A DNA stretch of 35,838 nucleotides from an uncultured Opitutaceae bacterium. GTDB taxonomy: Bacteria; Verrucomicrobiota; Verrucomicrobiia; Opitutales; Opitutaceae. Below the pieces are notes generated by a model that made no database searches, had not been told where the DNA came from, and saw nothing but the letters and a program-made list of their open reading frames with translations. This document shows positions 1 through 27,487 of the stretch, piece after piece. The DNA is taken from positions 1 to 35,838 of the forward strand of contig CAIOYO010000289.1 of assembly GCA_903862595.1 (NCBI GenBank). Direction: 5' to 3'. Each line of letters starts with the position of its first letter. Within the stretch, counting starts at the first letter, position 1. The translations under genes and the position numbers were made by a program.

Positions 1-1065
1 GAGAATTCCGCGCTCGCGGGCCCAGCGGCAGATGTCCCACACGCACAGGAAGTACCCGGCGAACCCGAGCTTGGCGATGACCGTGAGCTCGCGATCCAGC
101 TGCGCACGGTGGCGTGCGGTGAGCGCGGGAAAGCGCGCGGGTGCGGCGGCGAGGGTCTGGTGTCGCAGCCATGAATCCGCAGATTCGCCGGGCGGCGTGG
201 GAAAGGTCGGGAATTGGTAGCCGAGGTCGCGGAGGGTGAACGCGAGCTCGGCAGCAACCGCGCCAGCCTGGGCCAGCAGCGCCGGTCGGTCGGCGAAGAG
301 ATGCTGCATCGCGACGGGGCTGCGCAGGTGTCGCGCGTTGTTTGGGGCGAGCAGGCGGCCGGCGCCGTCGAGTGTGGTGTGATGTCTCAGGCAAGTAAAT
401 ACATCAGCGATCTCCCGGTCCTCCGGCCGCGCGTAGGCGACGCCGCCGGTGGCGAGTTGTGCGAGCCCGAAGCGGCGGGCCAGTGTGTCGAGCATGGCCT
501 CGGTCCGGGGTTCCCCGCGCACGCGGTGCCGCTGGACCTCGATGAAGAGGCGCCGCGGGCCGAAAATCCGGATCAGCGGCAGCAGCGCTGCGGCGGCGGC
601 CTCGGGGCCGCCGGTGGCCCAGGCGCGCAGCACGGGGCCGTCGGCGTCGCCGGTGAGGGCGATGAGCCCGTCGGCGTGGGCGGCTAGTTCTTCCCAGGTG
701 GCGTAGCAGGGGCGCTTGCGCTCCCGGGCGTCGGGGAAGGGGAGGTCGGCGGAGCGTTCGACCAGCCGGGCGGTGGTGAGGAGGCGGCAGAGGTTGCGGT
801 ACCCGGTGCGGTCGGCGACGAGCAGCGGGAGGGCCGCACCGTCGGCGAGGGTGAGTTCGCAGCCGACGAGGGCGCGGATGCCGTGGTCGCGACCAGCGTG
901 GTACAGGCGCGGCGCGCCGTACACGCCGTCGCGGTCGCACAGCGCGAGTGCGGGCAGGCCGAGGGCGGCGGCCTCGGCGGCGAGGTGCTCCGGCAGGCTG
1001 CCACCGCGGAGAAAGCTGAACGCGCTCCGGGCGTGCAGTTCGACATAGCCCGCGGGGTCAGTCAT
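1..1065 (-). CDS. dnaE2: Error-prone DNA polymerase DnaE2 (partial, N-terminal 355 residues)
   Basis: Translesion replicative-type polymerase, the catalytic subunit of the ImuA-ImuB-DnaE2 mutasome. The reading frame is open from the ATG at 1065 to the window edge. It begins with a PHP domain: the first motif includes ELHARSAFSFLRGGS (about residues 9-23), followed by ALCDRDGVYG (about 41-50). The visible part stops at a YFLCVWDICRWARERGIL stretch, just before the catalytic palm acidic residues, which lie outside the window. The start overlaps the imuB stop by 8 bases, and a GGAGG lies about 6 bases upstream inside imuB, so translation is probably coupled. Identification rests on PHP similarity plus the cassette context. 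It differs from housekeeping DnaE in the RSAFSFLRG form of the first motif. The 3' end is not visible. Confidence 0.93.
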   Translation of the reverse strand, partial: MTDPAGYVELHARSAFSFLRGGSLPEHLAAEAAALGLPALALCDRDGVYGAPRLYHAGRDHGIRALVGCELTLADGAALPLLVADRTGYRNLCRLLTTARLVERSADLPFPDARERKRPCYATWEELAAHADGLIALTGDADGPVLRAWATGGPEAAAAALLPLIRIFGPRRLFIEVQRHRVRGEPRTEAMLDTLARRFGLAQLATGGVAYARPEDREIADVFTCLRHHTTLDGAGRLLAPNNARHLRSPVAMQHLFADRPALLAQAGAVAAELAFTLRDLGYQFPTFPTPPGESADSWLRHQTLAAAPARFPALTARHRAQLDRELTVIAKLGFAGYFLCVWDICRWARERGIL

Positions 1066-2563
1066 ACTCGCCCTCCAGTTGCCAGCCGTCCGGCCGGTGC
1101 AGGAGTCGGTAGAGTCCGCCGGAGTCGAGGCGTACGTCCCATTCCTCGCGCTGCCAGGCGAGGTCGGCGCGCCACCATTCACCGCTGGCGAGCCATGGGC
1201 CGACGCAGGCGGTGACCTCCCCAGCCACCTCTGTGCTGCGCACGAAGGAAGGGCGGTGTGCGGAGAGTTCCACCCAGGCGGCGCGGGGCGGACGGAAGCG
1301 GCGCAGGGGTGGGCCGAGCACCGCCGGTGGAGTGGCGGAGGCGCAAGGTGACAGCGGAGGCAGGAGGGCCGGCGGAGGAGAAAGACGAAACGCGTCGGGC
1401 CGGCGGCTGTCCTCGACTGAGGGGGTGCCGGCGCGGTCGGCTCCGACCAACGCGGTGGTGCGGGCGAGCGTCTCAGCGAAGCCGTGCGGATCGCGCAGCG
1501 TGGCGTCGAGCAAGCCGGGTTGCCGCAGCAACGGGCGTGTGGGCGCGAGGCGGAGCGTCAGGCCCACGACGGGTGACGCCGTGTGCAGCGACTCAAGGCG
1601 AGTGGCGAGGACGCGAAACAAGGTCGCCGGGTCGCTGCAGGGATCAGGTAGTGAAATATAAGAGACAAAATCGGGTGGATCTTCCAGATGCAGCTGCAGT
1701 TCCACCCGGCCGGTGGCGAGGCCGGCGTTGACGAGATCGAGGCAGAGGCGATCGAGCTGGCGACGCAGGATGACGTGCACGGGCTCGAGTGTGCCCACCT
1801 CGTGATCGAACGTATGGCGGGCGATGAAGTGCGCGGGCGGGCGGGCAGGCGTGAGCGGTCGAACGGTTTCCCCGGCGGCCCGCTCCCAGAGGGCGAGACC
1901 CTCGGCGCCGAGCCGGCGGGCGATTTCCGCGCGCGGCAGGTCGGTCAGGTCGCCGAGGGTGCGCACGCCCCAGCGGGCGAGGATGGATTGCAGCGTCTCC
2001 GGAGGAGCGGCGGCGGAGAGTGGCAGCCCGGCGAGGAAGGTGCGCGGATGTGCGATGATTCGTACCTCTCCGGCGGGGCATTCCCGGGCGGCGTAGAGCG
2101 CGAGCAGCGGGGTCGCGGCAAGGCCGGCGGAGACCCGCAGGTCGAGCTCGCGTAACTGCGCGACGGCGGCCCGCAGGCGCGGCTCGCGCTGGAGGGGGGC
2201 GTGACCGGAGAGTTCGAGGGTGCAGATTCCCGGTTCCGTTTCCTCGACCACCGGAGAAAGTGAAAAGCTGACCGCCAGCAAGGCGGCGGTGGCCTCCGCC
2301 TCGGCGGATGGGTCGGCGGGCTGGAGTTGCAACCGCGGGCATCGGGCGAGGGCTTGGGACGGGGATGAGCCGGGCACGACGCCGGCGGCGCGGGCCTGCG
2401 CGCAGGCGGCGAGGATCACGGCGCGGCGGTGCGTGCCGGACAAAAGGCCGAGCGGTTCCTCACGCTCGCGCTCGTGGCGAGTGCGCCGCAGGGCCTGCAG
2501 CGGGAAGTCGGCCGCGAGCAGGACCGAGAAAGCGGGCGCCTTCGCTGATGCTGATTTCTCCAT
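1058..2563 (-). CDS. imuB: ImuB, Y-family polymerase-like mutasome protein
   Basis: A 501-residue DinB/UmuC-like protein that bridges the sliding clamp, ImuA and DnaE2 during SOS mutagenesis. The fold is recognisable, with the first strand VLLAADFPLQALRR at about residues 13-26, a helix-hairpin-helix-like RWGVRTLGDLTDLPRAEIARRLG, and a C-terminal tail. The catalytic acidic residues are not conserved: the first Asp of the usual DMDxFFAxVE motif is Ala, and the SIDEAFLD motif is replaced by PGICTLELSG. It is therefore predicted to be catalytically dead, as is usual for ImuB. It lies 15 bases after imuA and overlaps dnaE2 by 8 bases. Before the ATG at 2563 the sequence is pyrimidine-rich rather than Shine-Dalgarno. 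Regulation is presumably through the LexA operator before lexA. Confidence 0.93.
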   Translation of the reverse strand: MEKSASAKAPAFSVLLAADFPLQALRRTRHEREREEPLGLLSGTHRRAVILAACAQARAAGVVPGSSPSQALARCPRLQLQPADPSAEAEATAALLAVSFSLSPVVEETEPGICTLELSGHAPLQREPRLRAAVAQLRELDLRVSAGLAATPLLALYAARECPAGEVRIIAHPRTFLAGLPLSAAAPPETLQSILARWGVRTLGDLTDLPRAEIARRLGAEGLALWERAAGETVRPLTPARPPAHFIARHTFDHEVGTLEPVHVILRRQLDRLCLDLVNAGLATGRVELQLHLEDPPDFVSYISLPDPCSDPATLFRVLATRLESLHTASPVVGLTLRLAPTRPLLRQPGLLDATLRDPHGFAETLARTTALVGADRAGTPSVEDSRRPDAFRLSPPPALLPPLSPCASATPPAVLGPPLRRFRPPRAAWVELSAHRPSFVRSTEVAGEVTACVGPWLASGEWWRADLAWQREEWDVRLDSGGLYRLLHRPDGWQLEGEYD

Positions 2564-2578
2564 GAGGCTGGAGAGAGC

Positions 2579-3277
2579 TCAGGCACCCGCGAGACGGCCG
2601 AAGGCGGATCGGTGGCGATCCACCTCGGGCTGCAACTGCGTGAGCAAGGCCGATTGGTCCTCGTGCAACGAGGTGAAGGCATGCGCGTGACGCAGCCGCA
2701 AGCGCACGCGCGTGCATGGGATGAGGGGAAGAGGGGAAAGAATCAGACCCGCCACGCCGGATGACTCGACGGCTCGTTGCAGGCGGTACCACGGCTGAGT
2801 GGGCAGGCGGCTCAACCGAGTGGCTGGTACACCCCGCAGATCGAGCACCACCCAGGCGAGATTGGCATCGCGGGCGAGTAGATCGGCGGCGGCCAGTGCC
2901 TCCTCGGGGGTGCGTGGTCGCACCCAGACCAGGTGCTCCAACGAAGCGGTGGCGTAGGAAGCGGGATCGAACGCATCGGCCGCATCGACCAACGCGACGC
3001 GGAGCCGCGCCTGGCGCGTCGTGGCCAGCAGCCCGGCAAGCAACAAATGCCCCCCGCAGCTGGGCGAGTCACAGACGATCTCCGTCAAGGCGGCGTGGGG
3101 CAGGCCCCCGAGAACCTGATCGATGCTGGGCAGGCCGGTGAGCAGGGAGGATTCCGTGGTGCTGGCGGAAGACGGGGAGGCGTGTCGCCGGGCGATGAGT
3201 TCCCGCAGTGTGTTGAGGGTGGAGGTAGACGAGGTTGACGCAGACGGGGTGGAGGTGACGGAAGACACGGGATGCAT
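2579..3277 (-). CDS. imuA: ImuA, RecA-like mutasome accessory protein
   Basis: A 232-residue protein related to the RecA/SulA core, required with ImuB for DnaE2-dependent mutagenesis. It shows the typical opening LPSIDQVLGGLPHAALTEI, a degenerate Walker A region (CDSPSCGGHLLLAGLLA), and a Walker B-like strand LAWVVLDLRG. The P-loop Lys/Thr is absent, so ATP hydrolysis is doubtful. The frame stays open upstream to a TTG at 3331 (250 residues). I prefer the ATG at 3277, because neither start has a good ribosome site and the extension is low-complexity. It lies 164 bases downstream of lexA with no obvious terminator or second LexA box between them, which suggests one transcript lexA-imuA-imuB-dnaE2. 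Confidence 0.88.
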   Translation of the reverse strand: MHPVSSVTSTPSASTSSTSTLNTLRELIARRHASPSSASTTESSLLTGLPSIDQVLGGLPHAALTEIVCDSPSCGGHLLLAGLLATTRQARLRVALVDAADAFDPASYATASLEHLVWVRPRTPEEALAAADLLARDANLAWVVLDLRGVPATRLSRLPTQPWYRLQRAVESSGVAGLILSPLPLIPCTRVRLRLRHAHAFTSLHEDQSALLTQLQPEVDRHRSAFGRLAGA

Positions 3278-3441
3278 GGCGGAGGGCGCGGGCGGGCGCG
3301 CGGAGGCGCGGACGAAAAAAGGAATCGGCAACGTGTGACGCGCAGGGTTGCGCGCCGCTGGCCGGGGAAGTGGCCTCGGTGGAGCGAAGGCGGCGGCGCG
3401 CGGCGCGGACGGCGGAGAAGAAGCGCGGGCGGAGCGACGGA

Positions 3442-4080
3442 TCAGACGGTGGCGCGCAGCAGTCCGACCATGACGCCTTGGATCGTGAGATCGACGGCCG
3501 GCAGTAGGTCGGGATAGCGGGGATTCTCGGCGCGCAGGCAGGTGCGGCCCTCGTGGCGGATGAAGCGCTTGAGCGTGGACTCCCCGTCGATCAAGGCGGC
3601 GACGATGTCGCGGGGCCGGGGCTCGCGTGGAGTGAGGAAGACGATGTCGCCGTCGAGGATGGCGGCGCCGGTCATGGAATCTCCGCGGACGCGCAAGGCG
3701 TAGACGGGCGTGCCGTGGCGCAGCCCGAGGGAGGTGACATCTAGGGCGAGGAAACGATCGGGCTCGCGCTCGTTGGCGGCGGGCAGTCCGGCGGGGATCA
3801 CACCGTACAAGGGCACGTCGGCCAGCGTCGGGCGACGCGTGGAAGGCCCCGGGGGCAGCAACCCACGGGCGTGGCCGGGAAGTCGCCTCAGCAGGCCCTT
3901 CGCGGTGAGAACCTGCAAGTGGCGTTGCACGCCGTAGGGGCTGGCGAGTTTGCAGTGCGCCTGGATTTCCCGGATCGAAGGCGAGACCCCCTGCCGTTCG
4001 CGATGCGCGAGGATGAAGTCGAGAATCTGACGTTGGCGCGGCGACAAGGTACTGGGCATAGTGTACAAATGAACACTCAT
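3442..4080 (-). CDS. lexA: LexA repressor, SOS response
   Basis: Self-cleaving transcriptional repressor of the SOS regulon. The 212 residues show an N-terminal winged helix (STLSPRQRQILDFILAH and recognition region SPYGVQRHLQVL). A cleavage site Ala97-Gly98 lies in GVIPAGLP, catalytic Ser135 in RGDSM and Lys171 in ESTLKRF, so the S24 protease should be active. Two in-frame ATGs are possible, at 4080 and 4059. The LexA-like dyad at 4060-4077 lies exactly between them, so the operator either sits inside codons 2-7 or directly abuts the second ATG. Neither start has a clear Shine-Dalgarno sequence. The gene heads the imuA-imuB-dnaE2 cassette. Identification is secure and only the start is uncertain. 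Confidence 0.95.
   Translation of the reverse strand: MSVHLYTMPSTLSPRQRQILDFILAHRERQGVSPSIREIQAHCKLASPYGVQRHLQVLTAKGLLRRLPGHARGLLPPGPSTRRPTLADVPLYGVIPAGLPAANEREPDRFLALDVTSLGLRHGTPVYALRVRGDSMTGAAILDGDIVFLTPREPRPRDIVAALIDGESTLKRFIRHEGRTCLRAENPRYPDLLPAVDLTIQGVMVGLLRATV
4060..4077 (-). promoter_or_regulatory. LexA operator (SOS box)
   Basis: On the minus strand this 18-base dyad reads AGTGTTCATTTGTACACT, with 7 of 9 base pairs symmetric. The core TGTTC-ATTT-GTACA (4062-4075) differs by one base from the Verrucomicrobia LexA consensus TGTTC-N4-GAACA, quoted from memory of published work. It lies at the very start of lexA, so it fits autoregulation of the whole cassette. Confidence 0.8.
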
Positions 4081-22106: not shown

Positions 22107-22535
22107 CTAGGCGACGCCGCGGGCCCCGCTGTTCGGATTGGCCTCGTCCTTGCGCAGCATTTCGGCCCAGCCGTCGCGCAGTTGCCGGAGCAGCCGCTCG
22201 ACCTCATGGACGGGTTCTGGGCGCTTCTGGAGGTTGGCCTCGAGCAGTCGGCGCAGGTAATAGTCGTAGAGTCGAGCGAGGTCCGCGGCGTACTGGCCGC
22301 CGGCTTGGTGATCGAGATTGGATTGGAGCTCGATGAGAATGTTCTGGGCGCGCAGAATCGACGTATTGATGTGTTCGATGCGTCGTGGTGAAGCCTCGTC
22401 GGAGGCGAAGGCCGCCTGGGCTTGGCCGAGGAAGCGCAGTGCGCCATCGTAAAGCATCAGGACCAGTTGACCGGGGCTGGCCGTCAGAATCGACTGGGCG
22501 TAGTACGTGCGGGCACCGCCGTGGGGGAAGGACAT
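22107..22535 (-). CDS. fliS: Flagellin export chaperone FliS
   Basis: A 142-residue four-helix cytoplasmic chaperone that binds the C-terminus of flagellin and prevents early polymerisation. Family features are the ARTYYAQSILTASPGQLVLMLYDGALRFL opening, seen here in parts at about residues 8-36 with the key LVLMLYDGALRFL, then INTSILRAQNILIELQSNLD and DLARLYDYYLRRLLEAN. It lies 11 bases after the FlgM-like gene and 6 bases before the FliT-like gene, so the three form an operon, probably from the sigma-28-like element at 22914-22940. The start has a GGAG close to the ATG. Confidence 0.93.
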   Translation of the reverse strand: MSFPHGGARTYYAQSILTASPGQLVLMLYDGALRFLGQAQAAFASDEASPRRIEHINTSILRAQNILIELQSNLDHQAGGQYAADLARLYDYYLRRLLEANLQKRPEPVHEVERLLRQLRDGWAEMLRKDEANPNSGARGVA

Positions 22536-22546
22536 GGCTCCAGGAG

Positions 22547-22840
22547 TTAGGCCTGTTCGCTAGGATCGGCGGACTGGAGAAGGACCTTGGCCAACTCCTC
22601 GATGATCTGCAGCGGAGGATAATTAGGATCAATGGCGAGATGGCGCCCCTCGGCGACTACCTCCGGCCGGATTTCTGGCGTGGCAGCGAGGGCCGCACGC
22701 AGGGATTCAGCGCCCGCGAACGACAGGTGATCTGAGCCGGGAAGCGAGGCGATTGATGAACGATCGCCGATCGGCGCTGGAGGCGTCGGGGTGCCCGCGA
22801 CGCGCGGGGACCCTTGGTAAGGAAACGAGGGTTGGATCAT
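22547..22840 (-). CDS. Small FlgM-like protein (putative anti-sigma-28)
   Basis: A 97-residue protein with a disordered Pro/Ser-rich first half and a helical second half. The tail RPEVVAEGRHLAIDPNYPP and QIIEELAKVLL matches the general pattern of FlgM C-termini, a basic 'R-x-E-x-V' helix, a short spacer and a final amphipathic helix that binds FliA. Size, disorder and position at the head of the fliS operon fit FlgM, which holds sigma-28 inactive until hook completion and is then exported. Similarity is limited, so it may be another small flagellar protein. No other FlgM or FliA gene is in the window. Confidence 0.6.
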   Translation of the reverse strand: MIQPSFPYQGSPRVAGTPTPPAPIGDRSSIASLPGSDHLSFAGAESLRAALAATPEIRPEVVAEGRHLAIDPNYPPLQIIEELAKVLLQSADPSEQA

Positions 22841-22913
22841 GGTGCTATTCCGTGGTTGGTACGGTCAGCCCTCGGGAGAACGAGTCAGGGAACGCCGTGA
22901 CGAGATGAGAAGT

Positions 22914-22940
22914 GGATCGGATGGAAAATCGATTTCTTGA
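22914..22940 (-). promoter_or_regulatory. Candidate sigma-28 (FliA) promoter of the flgM-like/fliS operon
   Basis: On the minus strand, TCAAG is followed by 15 bases and CCGAT, the same spacing as the classical TAAAGTTT-N11-GCCGATAA. The full boxes are TCAAGAAA and TCCGATCC, so only about 9 of 16 positions match. It is 76 bases before the start at 22840. Confidence 0.5.
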
Positions 22941-22963
22941 GAAATTAACGTGAGCTTGAGGCA

Positions 22964-23635
22964 TCAGCGGGCGGGGAGCGTGCGGAGCAGCGCGGCGGCG
23001 ACGTACGACGCGAATCGGTCCGGATTTTGGAGGACCGTGTAGGTAAGATCCCCTGGTGATCCAGGCTGCGGGGCCGGCGATGCGGCGTGACGACGGGCGG
23101 AGTTGCGCACGGCGGCGAGGTTGGCATCGAAGAGCTCATCGCAGGCCCACAGGGTCTCTTGGGTGTCGGTGGTCACGAGTCGCCCGCGAATGCCCAATGC
23201 GAGGGGAGGATAGGCGCGGTACGACGTAACCTCGAGGAAGAGCACGGCATCCGCCGTGGTGCTCTCGCGTAGACGGCTCAGGAAGCGATCCGGAAGCGGT
23301 TCCGTCGCGCGCACCCGGCGTTCACCGGCGAGCCGCTGGAGACGATCGCCATCGAACACGAGGAGCTCCGCGCGGGCGGCGCGGGTGAATTCAGCGTGGA
23401 ACGCGGTCCCGATCGCATTGAGCGTCTCGTGCGAGACGTCCTCTGGGCCGGCGACCGGGAGAACGACCACCCGGGCAATGGAGTGCGGCATCGACGGCGT
23501 GGCGCGGATGTTCTTCGGCGTGTGGAAGGGCCCCACCACCGACCCGTCGGGACGTGGAATGGACTTGCAGCCTCCAAGACCGACGATCGAAACGAGGGCG
23601 AGGACGGAGGCCAGCGCGCGGGAGGGTAGCTTCAT
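22964..23635 (-). CDS. Putative outer-membrane lipoprotein coupled to fliD
   Basis: A 223-residue protein with a lipoprotein signal (MKLPSRALASVLALVSIVGLGGC; the lipobox LGGC gives Cys23). After the signal it has a compact alpha/beta domain: ARVVVLPVAGPEDVS, a strand-helix with ELLVFDGDRLQRLAG, and DAVLFLEVTSYRAYPP. This pattern recalls the periplasmic CsgG/TolB-N-like or GNA1162-like lipoproteins that bind at the cell envelope, but I cannot assign a family. Its ATG overlaps the fliD stop by 4 bases (ATGA), so it is translationally coupled to fliD. That coupling is unusual and points to an envelope role tied to the flagellum, by inference. Confidence 0.85.
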   Translation of the reverse strand: MKLPSRALASVLALVSIVGLGGCKSIPRPDGSVVGPFHTPKNIRATPSMPHSIARVVVLPVAGPEDVSHETLNAIGTAFHAEFTRAARAELLVFDGDRLQRLAGERRVRATEPLPDRFLSRLRESTTADAVLFLEVTSYRAYPPLALGIRGRLVTTDTQETLWACDELFDANLAAVRNSARRHAASPAPQPGSPGDLTYTVLQNPDRFASYVAAALLRTLPAR

Positions 23636-25371
23636 TTGGTGGAGGTGCTGCCAAGGCCGAAGGCCCGGGTCAGCTGGGACTGCATTTGCTGGAGGCGGGA
23701 CTGAGCGGTCTCCATCGCGATGAAACTCGCCTCCAACTGGCTCCGGCGCTGGGCGAGGCGCCGCTCGAGCGCGGAAATCTGGTCCGCGATTCCGGCCGTT
23801 GATCGATTGATCTGGCCGGTCTGCGCGCCGAGGGCCCCGGAGCTCGCGCCGTTGCCCAGCGTCGCCTTCATCAGGCTGTCCAATCGCGCGGTGAAGCCGG
23901 TCGTGCTGTTGCGCAGCAGGGCGTCGACCTCGGCGGGACGATCGCGCAAGGCCGCCTCAAGCCGCGCGGAGTCCTTCACCGTCAGAAGCGACTTGCCGGC
24001 GGCGAAATCAATGCCGAGGTCCTCTAGGCGACGGAGGCGCCCGGCGGGCTCGTCGGAGGCGGCAAAGGCGGCCGAACGCAGCGACTGAGCCCAGGCCTGC
24101 ACCTCTCGATTGCCGCTCAGGACGGAGTTGGTCACCTTGCCATCCGCGACAGTCACCTTGGTCTGCTCCTCGAGAAAAGTCTGCGCGTTGTTGTAGCGCT
24201 CGATGAAGCTGTCGATCGCGCTGCGCAGGGGTGCCGGATCGGATCCGACGGTCAGGGTTTCGCGTCCGGTGCTGCGGACCGTGAGCGCGAGTCCGGCGAT
24301 GCCATGGCTCATCGCGTCCAGCGTGTTCGACGAACTCGTCCGCTCCGGGCCGCCGTCGACCGTGAACCGAGCGGGTGTGCCGCGGGTCAAACTGGAGTCA
24401 GACTGCAGGCCGAGCGCGCTCATCAGCCCTCCGCTTGCTTCGCTCACGTGGATGCCGAGATCGCCAGTCACGCTGTTGCGCAGTCGCACGCGATCGGTGG
24501 TTGCGTCATAGTCCGCGGTGACCCCGGCCGTGGTGGCATTGATGCGGCCGATGACCGTTGCGAGCGAGTCGGTATTGAGGTTGTAGGCGATCGTGACGCC
24601 GTTGATGCGGAAGCTGCCGTCGCCCGATGCATCCACAGCCGTCACCGCCTCGGTGAGCCGAGCATTCGCGAGGGGAGCCTGCAGCGAGACGCGACCCAAC
24701 CCGGCGGTGCTCGATGCGGTGAGAGCGCTGGAGTGGGAGAGTTGGAGCGCCGCGAGCAGATTCGACGTGTCGTTGGCCGCACCCAGCGCGAGCGTCGATG
24801 TGCCGCTCAGCGTGATCCGGTCGGTCGCGGAGTCGTAGCTGCCCTGGACCTCGCCGCTGGTGGCAGTCGCGATCCGGTCGAGAATCTCTTGGAGGGAGTC
24901 GGTGCCCGCGACGGAGATCGTCTGGCCATTGACGGTGAAGGAGCCCGCGGTGACCGCCGTGGAAGTCGGCAGCGTCGCGACGGTGAGGCTGGAGAGATCA
25001 CTGCTGGTCGAGAGCGGCGATCCGAGGGCACGCGTGCTTTCACGGCGCGCCGCGGTGGCGAGTGACGTCACCTCGATCGTCCTAGCGCCTGTGCTGGCGC
25101 CGGCGGAGGCCGTCGCACTCCACGTCGAATTCCCGCTGGCCAACGTGACCGATCGTCCCGACGCAAGCGCCGGCGTCCGCAGCGTCGTGATCGACGACTG
25201 GAGGTCCTGCAGGCGCGAACGCACGCCCTCGAGCGCGCTGATCCGCCTGCCTTGTAACGTGCGCTCAGCCTCGAGGCGGCTCACCGGAGCGCGCTCCAGC
25301 TGCATCAGGCTGTCGACGAGACTTTTCCAGTCTAGTCCGGAAGCGAGTCCGGAGAGTTGGAGGCTAGGCAT
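23632..25371 (-). CDS. fliD: Flagellar filament cap protein FliD
   Basis: Hook-associated protein 2, which caps the filament tip and folds flagellin. The 579 residues start MPSLQLSGLASGLDWKSLVDSL, the conserved FliD N-terminus, with the ATG at 25371 preferred to an in-frame start at 25458. Two flagellin_IN-type repeats are visible (about 140-190, FTVNGQTISVAGTDSLQEIL; and about 240-290, FRINGVTIAYNLNTDSLATVI). A FliD_C region with FIERYNNAQTFLEEQTKV follows, then a coiled-coil tail rich in Gln/Arg. It is followed by the overlapping lipoprotein. A sigma-28-like element lies 45 bases upstream. The leader is pyrimidine-rich with ACC before ATG. Confidence 0.94.
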   Translation of the reverse strand: MPSLQLSGLASGLDWKSLVDSLMQLERAPVSRLEAERTLQGRRISALEGVRSRLQDLQSSITTLRTPALASGRSVTLASGNSTWSATASAGASTGARTIEVTSLATAARRESTRALGSPLSTSSDLSSLTVATLPTSTAVTAGSFTVNGQTISVAGTDSLQEILDRIATATSGEVQGSYDSATDRITLSGTSTLALGAANDTSNLLAALQLSHSSALTASSTAGLGRVSLQAPLANARLTEAVTAVDASGDGSFRINGVTIAYNLNTDSLATVIGRINATTAGVTADYDATTDRVRLRNSVTGDLGIHVSEASGGLMSALGLQSDSSLTRGTPARFTVDGGPERTSSSNTLDAMSHGIAGLALTVRSTGRETLTVGSDPAPLRSAIDSFIERYNNAQTFLEEQTKVTVADGKVTNSVLSGNREVQAWAQSLRSAAFAASDEPAGRLRRLEDLGIDFAAGKSLLTVKDSARLEAALRDRPAEVDALLRNSTTGFTARLDSLMKATLGNGASSGALGAQTGQINRSTAGIADQISALERRLAQRRSQLEASFIAMETAQSRLQQMQSQLTRAFGLGSTSTK

Positions 25372-25476: not shown

Positions 25477-25503
25477 TAAAGTTTCGTGCGGCGTGGCCCG
25501 TAA
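25477..25503 (+). promoter_or_regulatory. Sigma-28 (FliA) promoter of flagellin 1
   Basis: The -35 box TAAAGTTT is a perfect match to the classical FliA consensus. The spacer is exactly 11 bases. The -10 box GCCCGTAA matches GCCGATAA at 6 of 8. It lies 100 bases upstream of the ATG at 25603, leaving a leader of about 90 bases. Confidence 0.85.
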
Positions 25504-25565
25504 GCACAGTCATCTGCGCGCAGTGCGAGCAGACGGAGCGAGTCGGATCCCACCCCGGCTACGTC

Positions 25566-25596
25566 GCCCTACGGACGGGGTAATCAGATCAAGGAA
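25566..25596 (+). promoter_or_regulatory. Flagellin 1 leader: hairpin with GGA loop plus GGA at the ribosome site
   Basis: CCCT (25567-25570) and GGGG (25577-25580) enclose the hexaloop ACGGAC, the form preferred by CsrA/RsmA proteins. The next ANGGA (AAGGA, 25591-25595) is the Shine-Dalgarno itself, 20 bases downstream. Together they look like a two-site CsrA-type translational control element. CsrA and FliW are not encoded in the window. Confidence 0.5.
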
Positions 25597-25602
25597 GATA
25601 CC

Positions 25603-26418
25603 ATGTCAGTCGTCATTAATTCGAATGCGGCCGCCACTCTGGCGGCGAACAACCTCGCGGCGTCGAACTCGATGCTGCAGAAGAGCCTCAATCGGCTCTC
25701 CAGCGGATCTCGGATCGTCAGCCCAGCGGATGATGCTGGCGGCTTGGCGGTTTCCATGAAGCTCAGTGCGGCGGCGCGCCGCTCGGGCGCGGCGGCGACC
25801 AATGTTTCCAATGCGATCTCGCTCCTCCAGACCCAGGACGGCGTGCTGCAGGTCGCCGGTAAGGTGCTGAGCCGGATTGGTGAGCTGAAGACCCTTTACG
25901 GTGATCCGACGAAGAATGCTTCGGATCGCGCGAACTACGACGCCGAGTTCACCTCCCTCCAGGCCCAGCTCACGGCCCTCAGCGGTGAGACCTTCAACGG
26001 TGAGAGTCTCTTTGGCGCCACGGCGCGGACCGTCCCGGTGACGGAGGACGGCGCGAGCTCGGTGACTCTTGCGGCGCGTGATCTCTCCGCCGCCCCGACC
26101 GGAGTGGGTGACGTCATCGCGGGTACCGTCGTGGACCTCGACGACCTGGCCTTGGCGGACCTGACCACGGCGATTCAGAATGTCGCCACGTTCCGCGCCG
26201 AGAATGGCGCTGAGCAGAGCCGGCTCGGATTCGCCGGCGAGTTGCTCGCCGTCAACAAGGCGAACCTCGAGGCAGCTTCGAGCCGCATCGTCGACGTCGA
26301 CGTCGCGGCGGAGTCCACTCAGCTCGCGCGTTGGAATACGCTGGTCCAGGCGGGTACCGCGATGCTCGCCCAAGCCAATCAGAGCAGCCAGGCCGTCCTC
26401 CGACTCCTGCAGCAGTAA
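25603..26418 (+). CDS. Flagellin 1
   Basis: A 271-residue short flagellin that polymerises into the filament. It has the conserved N-terminal D0/D1 helices (MSVVINSNAAATLAANNL, LNRLSSGSRIVSPADDAGGLAVS) and C-terminal D1/D0 helices (NGAEQSRLGFAGELLAVNKA, SRIVDVDVAAESTQLARWN, VQAGTAMLAQANQSSQAVL). The middle is a small domain of about 60 residues, without the large D2/D3 variable domains. It has a real Shine-Dalgarno (AAGGA, 7 bases before ATG), unlike most neighbours. It comes 169 bases before a second, similar flagellin. The sigma-28 promoter and a putative CsrA element lie upstream. Confidence 0.97.
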   Translation: MSVVINSNAAATLAANNLAASNSMLQKSLNRLSSGSRIVSPADDAGGLAVSMKLSAAARRSGAAATNVSNAISLLQTQDGVLQVAGKVLSRIGELKTLYGDPTKNASDRANYDAEFTSLQAQLTALSGETFNGESLFGATARTVPVTEDGASSVTLAARDLSAAPTGVGDVIAGTVVDLDDLALADLTTAIQNVATFRAENGAEQSRLGFAGELLAVNKANLEAASSRIVDVDVAAESTQLARWNTLVQAGTAMLAQANQSSQAVLRLLQQ

Positions 26419-26513
26419 GTGTAGTCTCGCTCTGGAGCGTCGCGATGGCGGCTCCTCCAACTCTTTCGCCTCAGGTTTCCACCTAGGCTTCCCTTTGGGG
26501 TACTTGCCCTAAT

Positions 26514-26530
26514 CGGCGCGGTCCGCGCCG
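26514..26530 (+). other. Intergenic hairpin between the flagellin genes
   Basis: CGGCGCG-GTC-CGCGCCG forms a perfect 7-pair stem, 96 bases after flagellin 1 stops. There is no T-run, so readthrough into flagellin 2 is possible. No sigma-28-like promoter is visible before flagellin 2, which fits either a shared transcript or a promoter type I cannot see. Confidence 0.45.
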
Positions 26531-26547
26531 TACTTCCCGGACCCGTG

Positions 26548-26577
26548 GCGACGGCGGACGTCGCACTTATCAAGGAA
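26548..26577 (+). promoter_or_regulatory. Flagellin 2 leader: hairpin with GGA loop plus GGA at the ribosome site
   Basis: GCGACG (26548-26553) and CGTCGC (26559-26564) form a 6-pair stem around the loop GCGGA. The next GGA (26574-26576) is in the AAGGA ribosome site, 18 bases after the loop GGA. The layout parallels the flagellin 1 leader even though the sequences differ. Confidence 0.45.
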
Positions 26578-26587
26578 AGATACCACC

Positions 26588-27400
26588 ATGTCAGTTGTCA
26601 TCAATACCAACTACGCCGCGACGGTTGCCTCGAACAATCTCGCTGCTTCGAACAGCATGCTGCAGCGGAGCCTCAACCGGCTCTCGAGCGGCTCCAAGAT
26701 CATCACCCCGGCGGACGACGCTGGCGGCCTCGCGGTTTCCATGAAACTGAGCGCGGCGGCCAAGCGCTCGGGCGCCGTGGCGTCCGGGATCGGTAACGCG
26801 GTGTCCCTGCTCCAGACTGAGGACGGCGCGCTGAAGATCGCGGGCAAGGTCCTGGATCGCATCAGCGAACTGAAGACCCTCTACTCGGATCCGACGAAGA
26901 ACGCGACTGACCTCGCGAACTACGACGCCGAGTTCACGGGCCTGCAGGCTCAGCTGACGGCGCTGGCGACCGAGAAGTTCAACGGCATCGATCTGTTCGG
27001 CGGCTCGGCGCTGTCGGTCTCGGTGTCGGAGGACGGAGCGACGACGGTGTCGGTCAGCGGACGCGATCTCGATGACACCACCGCCGGTGTCGGTACGATC
27101 ACGGCCGGTGCGGTCACCGACCTCGGCGACATCGATCTGTCGGACATCACGGATGCCATCCAGAACGTCGCCACGTTCCGCGCTGACAACGGCGCGGAGC
27201 AGAGCCGCCTCGGCTTCGCTTCCGAGCTGATCACCATCAACAAGGCGAACCTCGAAGCCGCTTCGAGTCGCATCGTGGATGTGGACGTCGCGGAAGAGTC
27301 CACGCAGCTCGCGCGCTGGAATACGCTGGTCCAGGCCGGCACGGCGATGCTCGCGCAGGCGAATGGCTCGGCTCAGACGGCACTGCGACTCCTCCAGTAA
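26588..27400 (+). CDS. Flagellin 2
   Basis: A 270-residue flagellin closely similar to flagellin 1 over the N- and C-terminal helices (SLNRLSSGSKIITPADDAGG; SRIVDVDVAEESTQLARWN). The two differ mostly in the central part (about 120-185), where flagellin 2 carries SVSVSEDGATTVSVSGRDLD. It is a tandem paralogue, probably from duplication followed by divergence of the exposed domain. The ATG has an AAGGA ribosome site 11 bases upstream. A strong terminator follows at 27448. It may form a mixed filament or be used under different conditions. Confidence 0.97.
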   Translation: MSVVINTNYAATVASNNLAASNSMLQRSLNRLSSGSKIITPADDAGGLAVSMKLSAAAKRSGAVASGIGNAVSLLQTEDGALKIAGKVLDRISELKTLYSDPTKNATDLANYDAEFTGLQAQLTALATEKFNGIDLFGGSALSVSVSEDGATTVSVSGRDLDDTTAGVGTITAGAVTDLGDIDLSDITDAIQNVATFRADNGAEQSRLGFASELITINKANLEAASSRIVDVDVAEESTQLARWNTLVQAGTAMLAQANGSAQTALRLLQ

Positions 27401-27447: not shown

Positions 27448-27487
27448 AGCCGCCCCGGTCGAGTCCCGACCGGGGCGGCTCTATTTT
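27448..27487 (+). terminator. Rho-independent terminator after flagellin 2
   Basis: A perfect 14-pair stem (AGCCGCCCCGGTCG with CGACCGGGGCGGCT; loop 27462-27466) is followed by CTATTTTA. It lies 47 bases after the flagellin 2 stop and is the only strong terminator of the flagellin pair. Confidence 0.9.

Follow-up and report, generated by a model that had tools for sequence, protein, structure and literature searches.

Two tandem flagellin genes, fla1 and fla2, lie within the 35,838-nucleotide stretch of an uncultured Opitutaceae bacterium analysed here (the window), and their leaders raise the question of whether flagellin translation in this group is controlled by CsrA. The initial annotation had described, in front of both genes, a hairpin with GGA in its loop and a second GGA at the Shine-Dalgarno (SD) sequence, a layout resembling paired CsrA sites. 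Both hairpins (P4) and both SD GGAs were located exactly where they had been placed, separated by 20 nt in fla1 and 18 nt in fla2 (Table 1). Single-sequence nested folding disfavoured P4 of fla1 (pair probability ~0.04), whose stem is weakened by two G-U pairs, and favoured that of fla2 (~0.9); folding z-scores of 0.22 for the fla1 leader and -1.16 for the other were uninformative as evidence. Support for the predicted fla1 P4 is thus comparative, not energetic.

Table 1. Features of the flagellin region of the window. A1, alignment of 59 fla2-type leaders; A2 and A3, alignments of 24 and 23 fla1-type leaders, respectively.
Feature	Position	Strand	Composition	Basis or remark
Sigma-28-type promoter before fla1	25477..25503	+	TAAA-N15-GCCCGTAA	Pattern scan
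fla1 leader P1 hairpin	25513..25533	+	UCUGC/GCAGA	Covarying helix, A3
fla1 leader H-type pseudoknot	25535..25560	+		Pseudoknot search; covariation in A3
fla1 P2	25535-25537 with 25548-25550	+	GGA/UCC	Part of fla1 pseudoknot
fla1 P3	25541-25546 with 25555-25560	+	AGUCGG/CCGGCU	Part of fla1 pseudoknot
fla1 P4, upstream predicted CsrA site	25566..25581	+	GCCCU (25566-25570), hexaloop ACGGAC (25571-25576), GGGGU (25577-25581); loop GGA 25573-25575	
fla1 SD, second predicted CsrA site	25591..25595	+	AAGGA; GGA 25593-25595	AUCAAGGA invariant in A2 and A3
Flagellin 1 (fla1)	25603..26418	+	271 aa	Flagellin_N and Flagellin_C
fla2 leader P1 hairpin	26494..26513	+		Covarying helix, A1
fla2 leader H-type pseudoknot	26514..26543	+		Pseudoknot search; covariation
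fla2 P2	26514-26518 with 26526-26530	+	CGGCG/CGCCG	Part of fla2 pseudoknot
fla2 P3	26520-26525 with 26538-26543	+	GGUCCG/CGGACC	Part of fla2 pseudoknot
fla2 P4, upstream predicted CsrA site	26548..26564	+	GCGACG (26548-26553), loop GCGGA (26554-26558), CGUCGC (26559-26564); loop GGA 26556-26558	
fla2 SD, second predicted CsrA site	26572..26576	+	AAGGA; GGA 26574-26576	CAAGGA invariant in 59/59 A1 sequences
Flagellin 2 (fla2)	26588..27400	+	270 aa	Flagellin_N and Flagellin_C
Intrinsic-terminator-like hairpin after fla2	27448..27480	+		

Such a layout might be accidental, since GC-rich DNA and SD sequences alike abound in GGA and hairpins are easily found. Taken alone, the fla1 and fla2 leaders yielded it with a stem of at least five pairs in 3.3% and 2.4% of dinucleotide shuffles, respectively, and since an SD GGA is common, only the upstream GGA site carries much information. 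At this chance level of 2-3% per leader, the two-leader evidence of the initial annotation was suggestive only, and the layout was settled by comparison with a set of distinct flagellin leaders (n = 179) from Opitutaceae and relatives, the named relatives being Opitutaceae of the Verrucomicrobiota (MAGs, Opitutus, Lacunisphaera and Pelagicoccus). A hairpin with GGA in its loop, mostly ACGGAC or ACGGA, was present in 175 of the 179, usually with 17-23 nt between loop GGA and SD GGA; the remaining four failed the hairpin search yet retained a GGA near a mismatched stem. A strict test combining a stem of at least five pairs with a GGA spacing of 17-23 nt was passed by 158/179 leaders, compared with 21/1780 shuffles (1.2%) and 3/178 non-flagellin genes, the latter a small set with mechanically assigned start codons in which a gene subset stands for the genome-wide background. 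The same leader recurs in nearly all flagellated relatives.

The P4 stem, in turn, showed clear covariation. Within the hexaloop frame, the GGA was invariant across 43 distinct hairpins and 215/215 cells were paired, a completeness that partly reflects how the hairpins were chosen, namely by pairing of at least four positions; unaffected by this choice, compensatory double changes occurred at all five stem pairs. None of 500 shuffles reached the P4 covariation score. Loop GGA and stem pairing, the two properties that the initial annotation had proposed to compare among relatives, were therefore both conserved, with compensatory changes, and an explanation by chance or a plain SD sequence is refuted by the comparison, its probability being negligible. 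The initial annotation had also taken the hairpins of fla1 and fla2 as unrelated and their common layout as a sign of selection. Conservation of the layout held across the relatives, but independence of the hairpins did not: the two leaders are members of a single family, in which P1, pseudoknot, hairpin and SD follow in a common order, and their hairpins are not independent inventions.

The genome (G000) encodes the matching regulators. A search for csrA and fliW, likewise proposed at the outset, retrieved one copy of each on a contig (C187) other than that of the flagellins, with fliW (PF02623, E 8e-32) immediately 5' of csrA (PF02599, E 4e-24) in the order flgI-flgJ-flgN-flgK-flgL-fliW-csrA (flgI, flgJ and flgL identified partly by sequence reading). 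By-eye counting of residues indicated that the 89-aa CsrA keeps L4, R44 and N55 and carries a C-terminal extension; R44 is an RNA-binding residue of CsrA, and N55D a FliW-site mutant (PMC6529632, PMC7652899, PMC4894983). Its best PDB matches were B. subtilis CsrA (1t3o) and the CsrA of a crystallised CsrA-FliW complex (5dmb), and FliW matched chain A of 5dmb. Across 100 Opitutaceae genomes, csrA occurred in 51 and fliW in the identical 51, always close together and csrA never without fliW. Flagellin-like matches were found in 57, that is, in six genomes beyond the csrA-fliW set: three have fragmented genes or incomplete assemblies (G001, G014, G087), two give very weak flagellin matches (G010, G056), and one is a real gap (G039), with two conserved leaders and neither csrA nor fliW found in a 93%-complete assembly. 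Because csrA is found only alongside fliW in the family, Opitutaceae CsrA may regulate flagellin specifically and not act as a global regulator, a reading that bears on the original role of CsrA. In many relatives (L189-L208), a third, divergent flagellin gene directly follows fliW-csrA; in this genome, no such gene occupies the csrA-adjacent place. Control of the third flagellin by a leader was rejected, as no structured leader was found there in these relatives and mostly no clear SD, and this gene may escape CsrA control.

The recurrent paired-site leader makes CsrA-FliW feedback very probable, and on sequence grounds we are highly confident that both flagellin mRNAs of the window are under translational control by this homeostasis loop. 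The initial proposal of CsrA-type control as in Bacillus thus gains support from the csrA-fliW pair and the conserved, covarying GGA hairpin. By homology, a CsrA dimer would place one RNA pocket on the P4 loop GGA and the other on the SD GGA ~20 nt downstream, and bridging the two would block the ribosome. FliW, from the same operon as CsrA, would take CsrA off the RNA, and unexported, cytoplasmic flagellin would restore repression by binding and titrating FliW.

The leaders resemble known CsrA targets. In published work, CsrA binds ANGGAN hexaloops with high affinity and bridges two sites best when they lie at least ~18 nt apart (PMC6529632, PMC7652899, PMC4894983). Hairpins of the typical form C[ACGGAC]G conform to the high-affinity CANGGANG hexaloop and to the spacing of 18-21 nt that has been reported in Campylobacter (PMC4894983), and a closing AC...GU, as in GAC[ACGGAC]GUC, fits the CsrA SELEX sequence RUACARGGAUGU (PMC7652899). 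Similarities to the Campylobacter jejuni flaA 5' UTR extend to a sigma-28 flagellin mRNA with ANGGA in the hexaloop of an upstream hairpin and again at the ribosome site, compensatory base changes, a GGA spacing that is 21 nt there, and FliW as antagonist with no known sRNA antagonist (PMC4894983). The flaA leader, however, comprises 45 nt and two stem-loops (PMC4894983), whereas the leaders here span ~90 nt, contain an extra P1 and H-type pseudoknot, and have an SD site outside any conserved hairpin. The Bacillus subtilis hag leader similarly has a pair of CsrA sites, of which one covers the SD, together with a fliW-csrA gene pair and a CsrA with C-terminal extension and N55 (PMC6529632, PMC7652899); in contrast to hag, several flagellin genes here each carry a leader copy, a pseudoknot is present and the phylum differs. 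In the E. coli glgC leader, a GGA in a hairpin loop likewise anchors a CsrA dimer, which then reaches across to the SD, but the gene is not a flagellin and the antagonists are the sRNAs CsrB/C (PMC7652899). In line with the initial annotation, which knew of no described example in the phylum, we found no report of CsrA-FliW flagellin control in Verrucomicrobiota in the open-licence papers searched. Strong comparative RNA evidence would extend the CsrA-FliW flagellin checkpoint to this phylum, and the leaders offer a natural series of well over 100 covarying predicted CsrA sites for the study of CsrA recognition.

Two further elements common to the leaders lie 5' of P4 and were absent from the initial annotation, namely the P1 hairpin and an H-type pseudoknot, in which the loop of P2 (CGGC/GCCG), for example GGUCCG, pairs with the strand directly 5' of P4 (P3, CGGACC). 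All four helices were supported in the three alignments, with 88-92% of cells paired and 12-19 pairs showing double changes; the observed four-helix covariation score was reached by 0/500 shuffles, and slid structures scored far lower. P3 covaried by itself (scores of 0.62 and 0.49, 0/500 shuffles), and a pseudoknot score of at least 14 was obtained for 47% of leaders versus 2% of shuffles. The loop lengths, 1-3 nt for L1 and ~4-9 nt for L3, are sterically normal for H-type pseudoknots. The element appears to be without precedent in Rfam: no gathering-score match was obtained in the window, and no plausible match in its leader region (E up to 10) or in the leaders of 16 relatives (E up to 1). 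This rules out a known Rfam element for the leaders tested, including the Termite-flg motif (RF01729), a candidate structured RNA whose name likewise suggests flagellar genes but which is reported from the termite hindgut only (PMC2864571). A search with a covariance model of the fla2-type leaders gave 126 matches at 70 loci, lying by position at flagellin leaders. Within the genome of the window, the leaders of fla1 and fla2 alone stood out, that of fla1 weakly (E 0.34), and a further match fell on contig C24 (E 0.67). Across 387 Verrucomicrobiota genomes, convincing matches were confined to Opitutaceae; for three others from beyond the family (L177-L179), no flagellin was seen to follow, and they look like chance. 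As modelled, pseudoknot and P1 are therefore confined to flagellin leaders. The pseudoknotted architecture is new, the principle of gene control known, and a conserved pseudoknotted 5' UTR without Rfam match here precedes mRNAs that are usually very highly expressed.

As to its role, the pseudoknot probably sets P4 apart, keeps it accessible and adds stability to the 5' end: P1 and P2/P3 would most likely hold the 5' UTR folded with P4 exposed before the SD, and protect a very abundant mRNA. Alternatively, the pseudoknot could be a separate device that feeds a second signal into flagellin translation, either as a ligand-binding riboswitch or by binding FliW, flagellin or some other protein. 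Its conservation, its covariation, its canonical H-type loop lengths and its place directly before the predicted CsrA site would suit such a device, and FliW is reported as a weak binder of the B. subtilis hag leader, for reasons unknown (PMC6529632). We nevertheless regard it as unlikely, since the unpaired positions 5' of P4 appear, by eye, to vary in A1-A3, with no obvious strongly conserved unpaired core of the riboswitch kind, and since Rfam gave no match. Similarly speculative is a composite RNA, in which a pseudoknot with its own input (FliW, a flagellin chaperone, the ribosome or another factor) alters exposure of the CsrA module; if true, flagellin translation would integrate two signals.

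We then considered how the two leaders are transcribed. A strict sigma-28-type promoter match was found by pattern scan in 29/83 fla1-type leaders, with the end of the -10 box ~100-105 nt 5' of the ATG in nearly all 29, and in no fla2-type leader. P1 of fla1-type leaders begins ~10 nt after the -10 box and would consequently form the mRNA 5' end. Since a terminator-like hairpin follows fla2 and none was found in the fla1-fla2 gap, which also yielded no promoter, a shared transcript is likely, and the two genes likely form an operon with its own leader before each gene. Between fla1 and the fla2 leader, just 5' of P1 (26419-26490 in the window), we observed in many relatives an additional strong GC-rich hairpin and a recurring GTTCTTTGA-like stretch, possibly a processing or stability element.

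The position of fla2 within a likely operon, with neither promoter nor terminator found between the genes, could suggest that the leader hairpin is itself merely structural, serving mRNA stability, ribosome standby or intercistronic processing with an incidental loop GGA, the more so as the leader holds two more covarying elements that need no CsrA. A stability element, however, would not hold the hexaloop GGA invariant while every stem pair changes, and the hairpin GGA keeps a fixed distance to the SD in genomes carrying csrA-fliW. As the GGA hairpin also occurs in other families lacking the pseudoknot, we consider a purely structural role very improbable and retain CsrA-FliW control as the preferred reading.

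Beyond the family, fliW was detected in 41 of the 387 phylum genomes, and all 21 fliW genomes outside Opitutaceae also carry flagellins. In a partial survey of the flagellins of these distant fliW genomes, with start codons located for about half and counts taken without shuffle control, most of those with a located start codon had a hairpin 5' of the SD with GGA in its loop; the stems were unrelated, as in CUCUGAC[AAGGAC]GUCAGAG and GACUGCAC[AGGGAC]GUGCAGUC. With such hairpins before flagellins in other families, the predicted CsrA module looks phylum-wide. The pseudoknot is largely restricted to Opitutaceae: most distant families lacked it in the flagellin leaders examined, with a single clear case from the same order (L221) and possible ones from the same class (L220) and a distant family (L222). 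The last is a long predicted pseudoknot with an A-rich third loop before a flagellin, either homologous or convergent.

Elsewhere in the window, Pfam matches to fliD and fliS adjoin the flagellins on the minus strand (22110-25368). Also on the minus strand, ORFs at 1058-4080 named by eye only as lexA-like (3442-4080), imuA-like (2579-3331) and imuB-like (1058-2563) resemble an SOS mutagenesis cassette.
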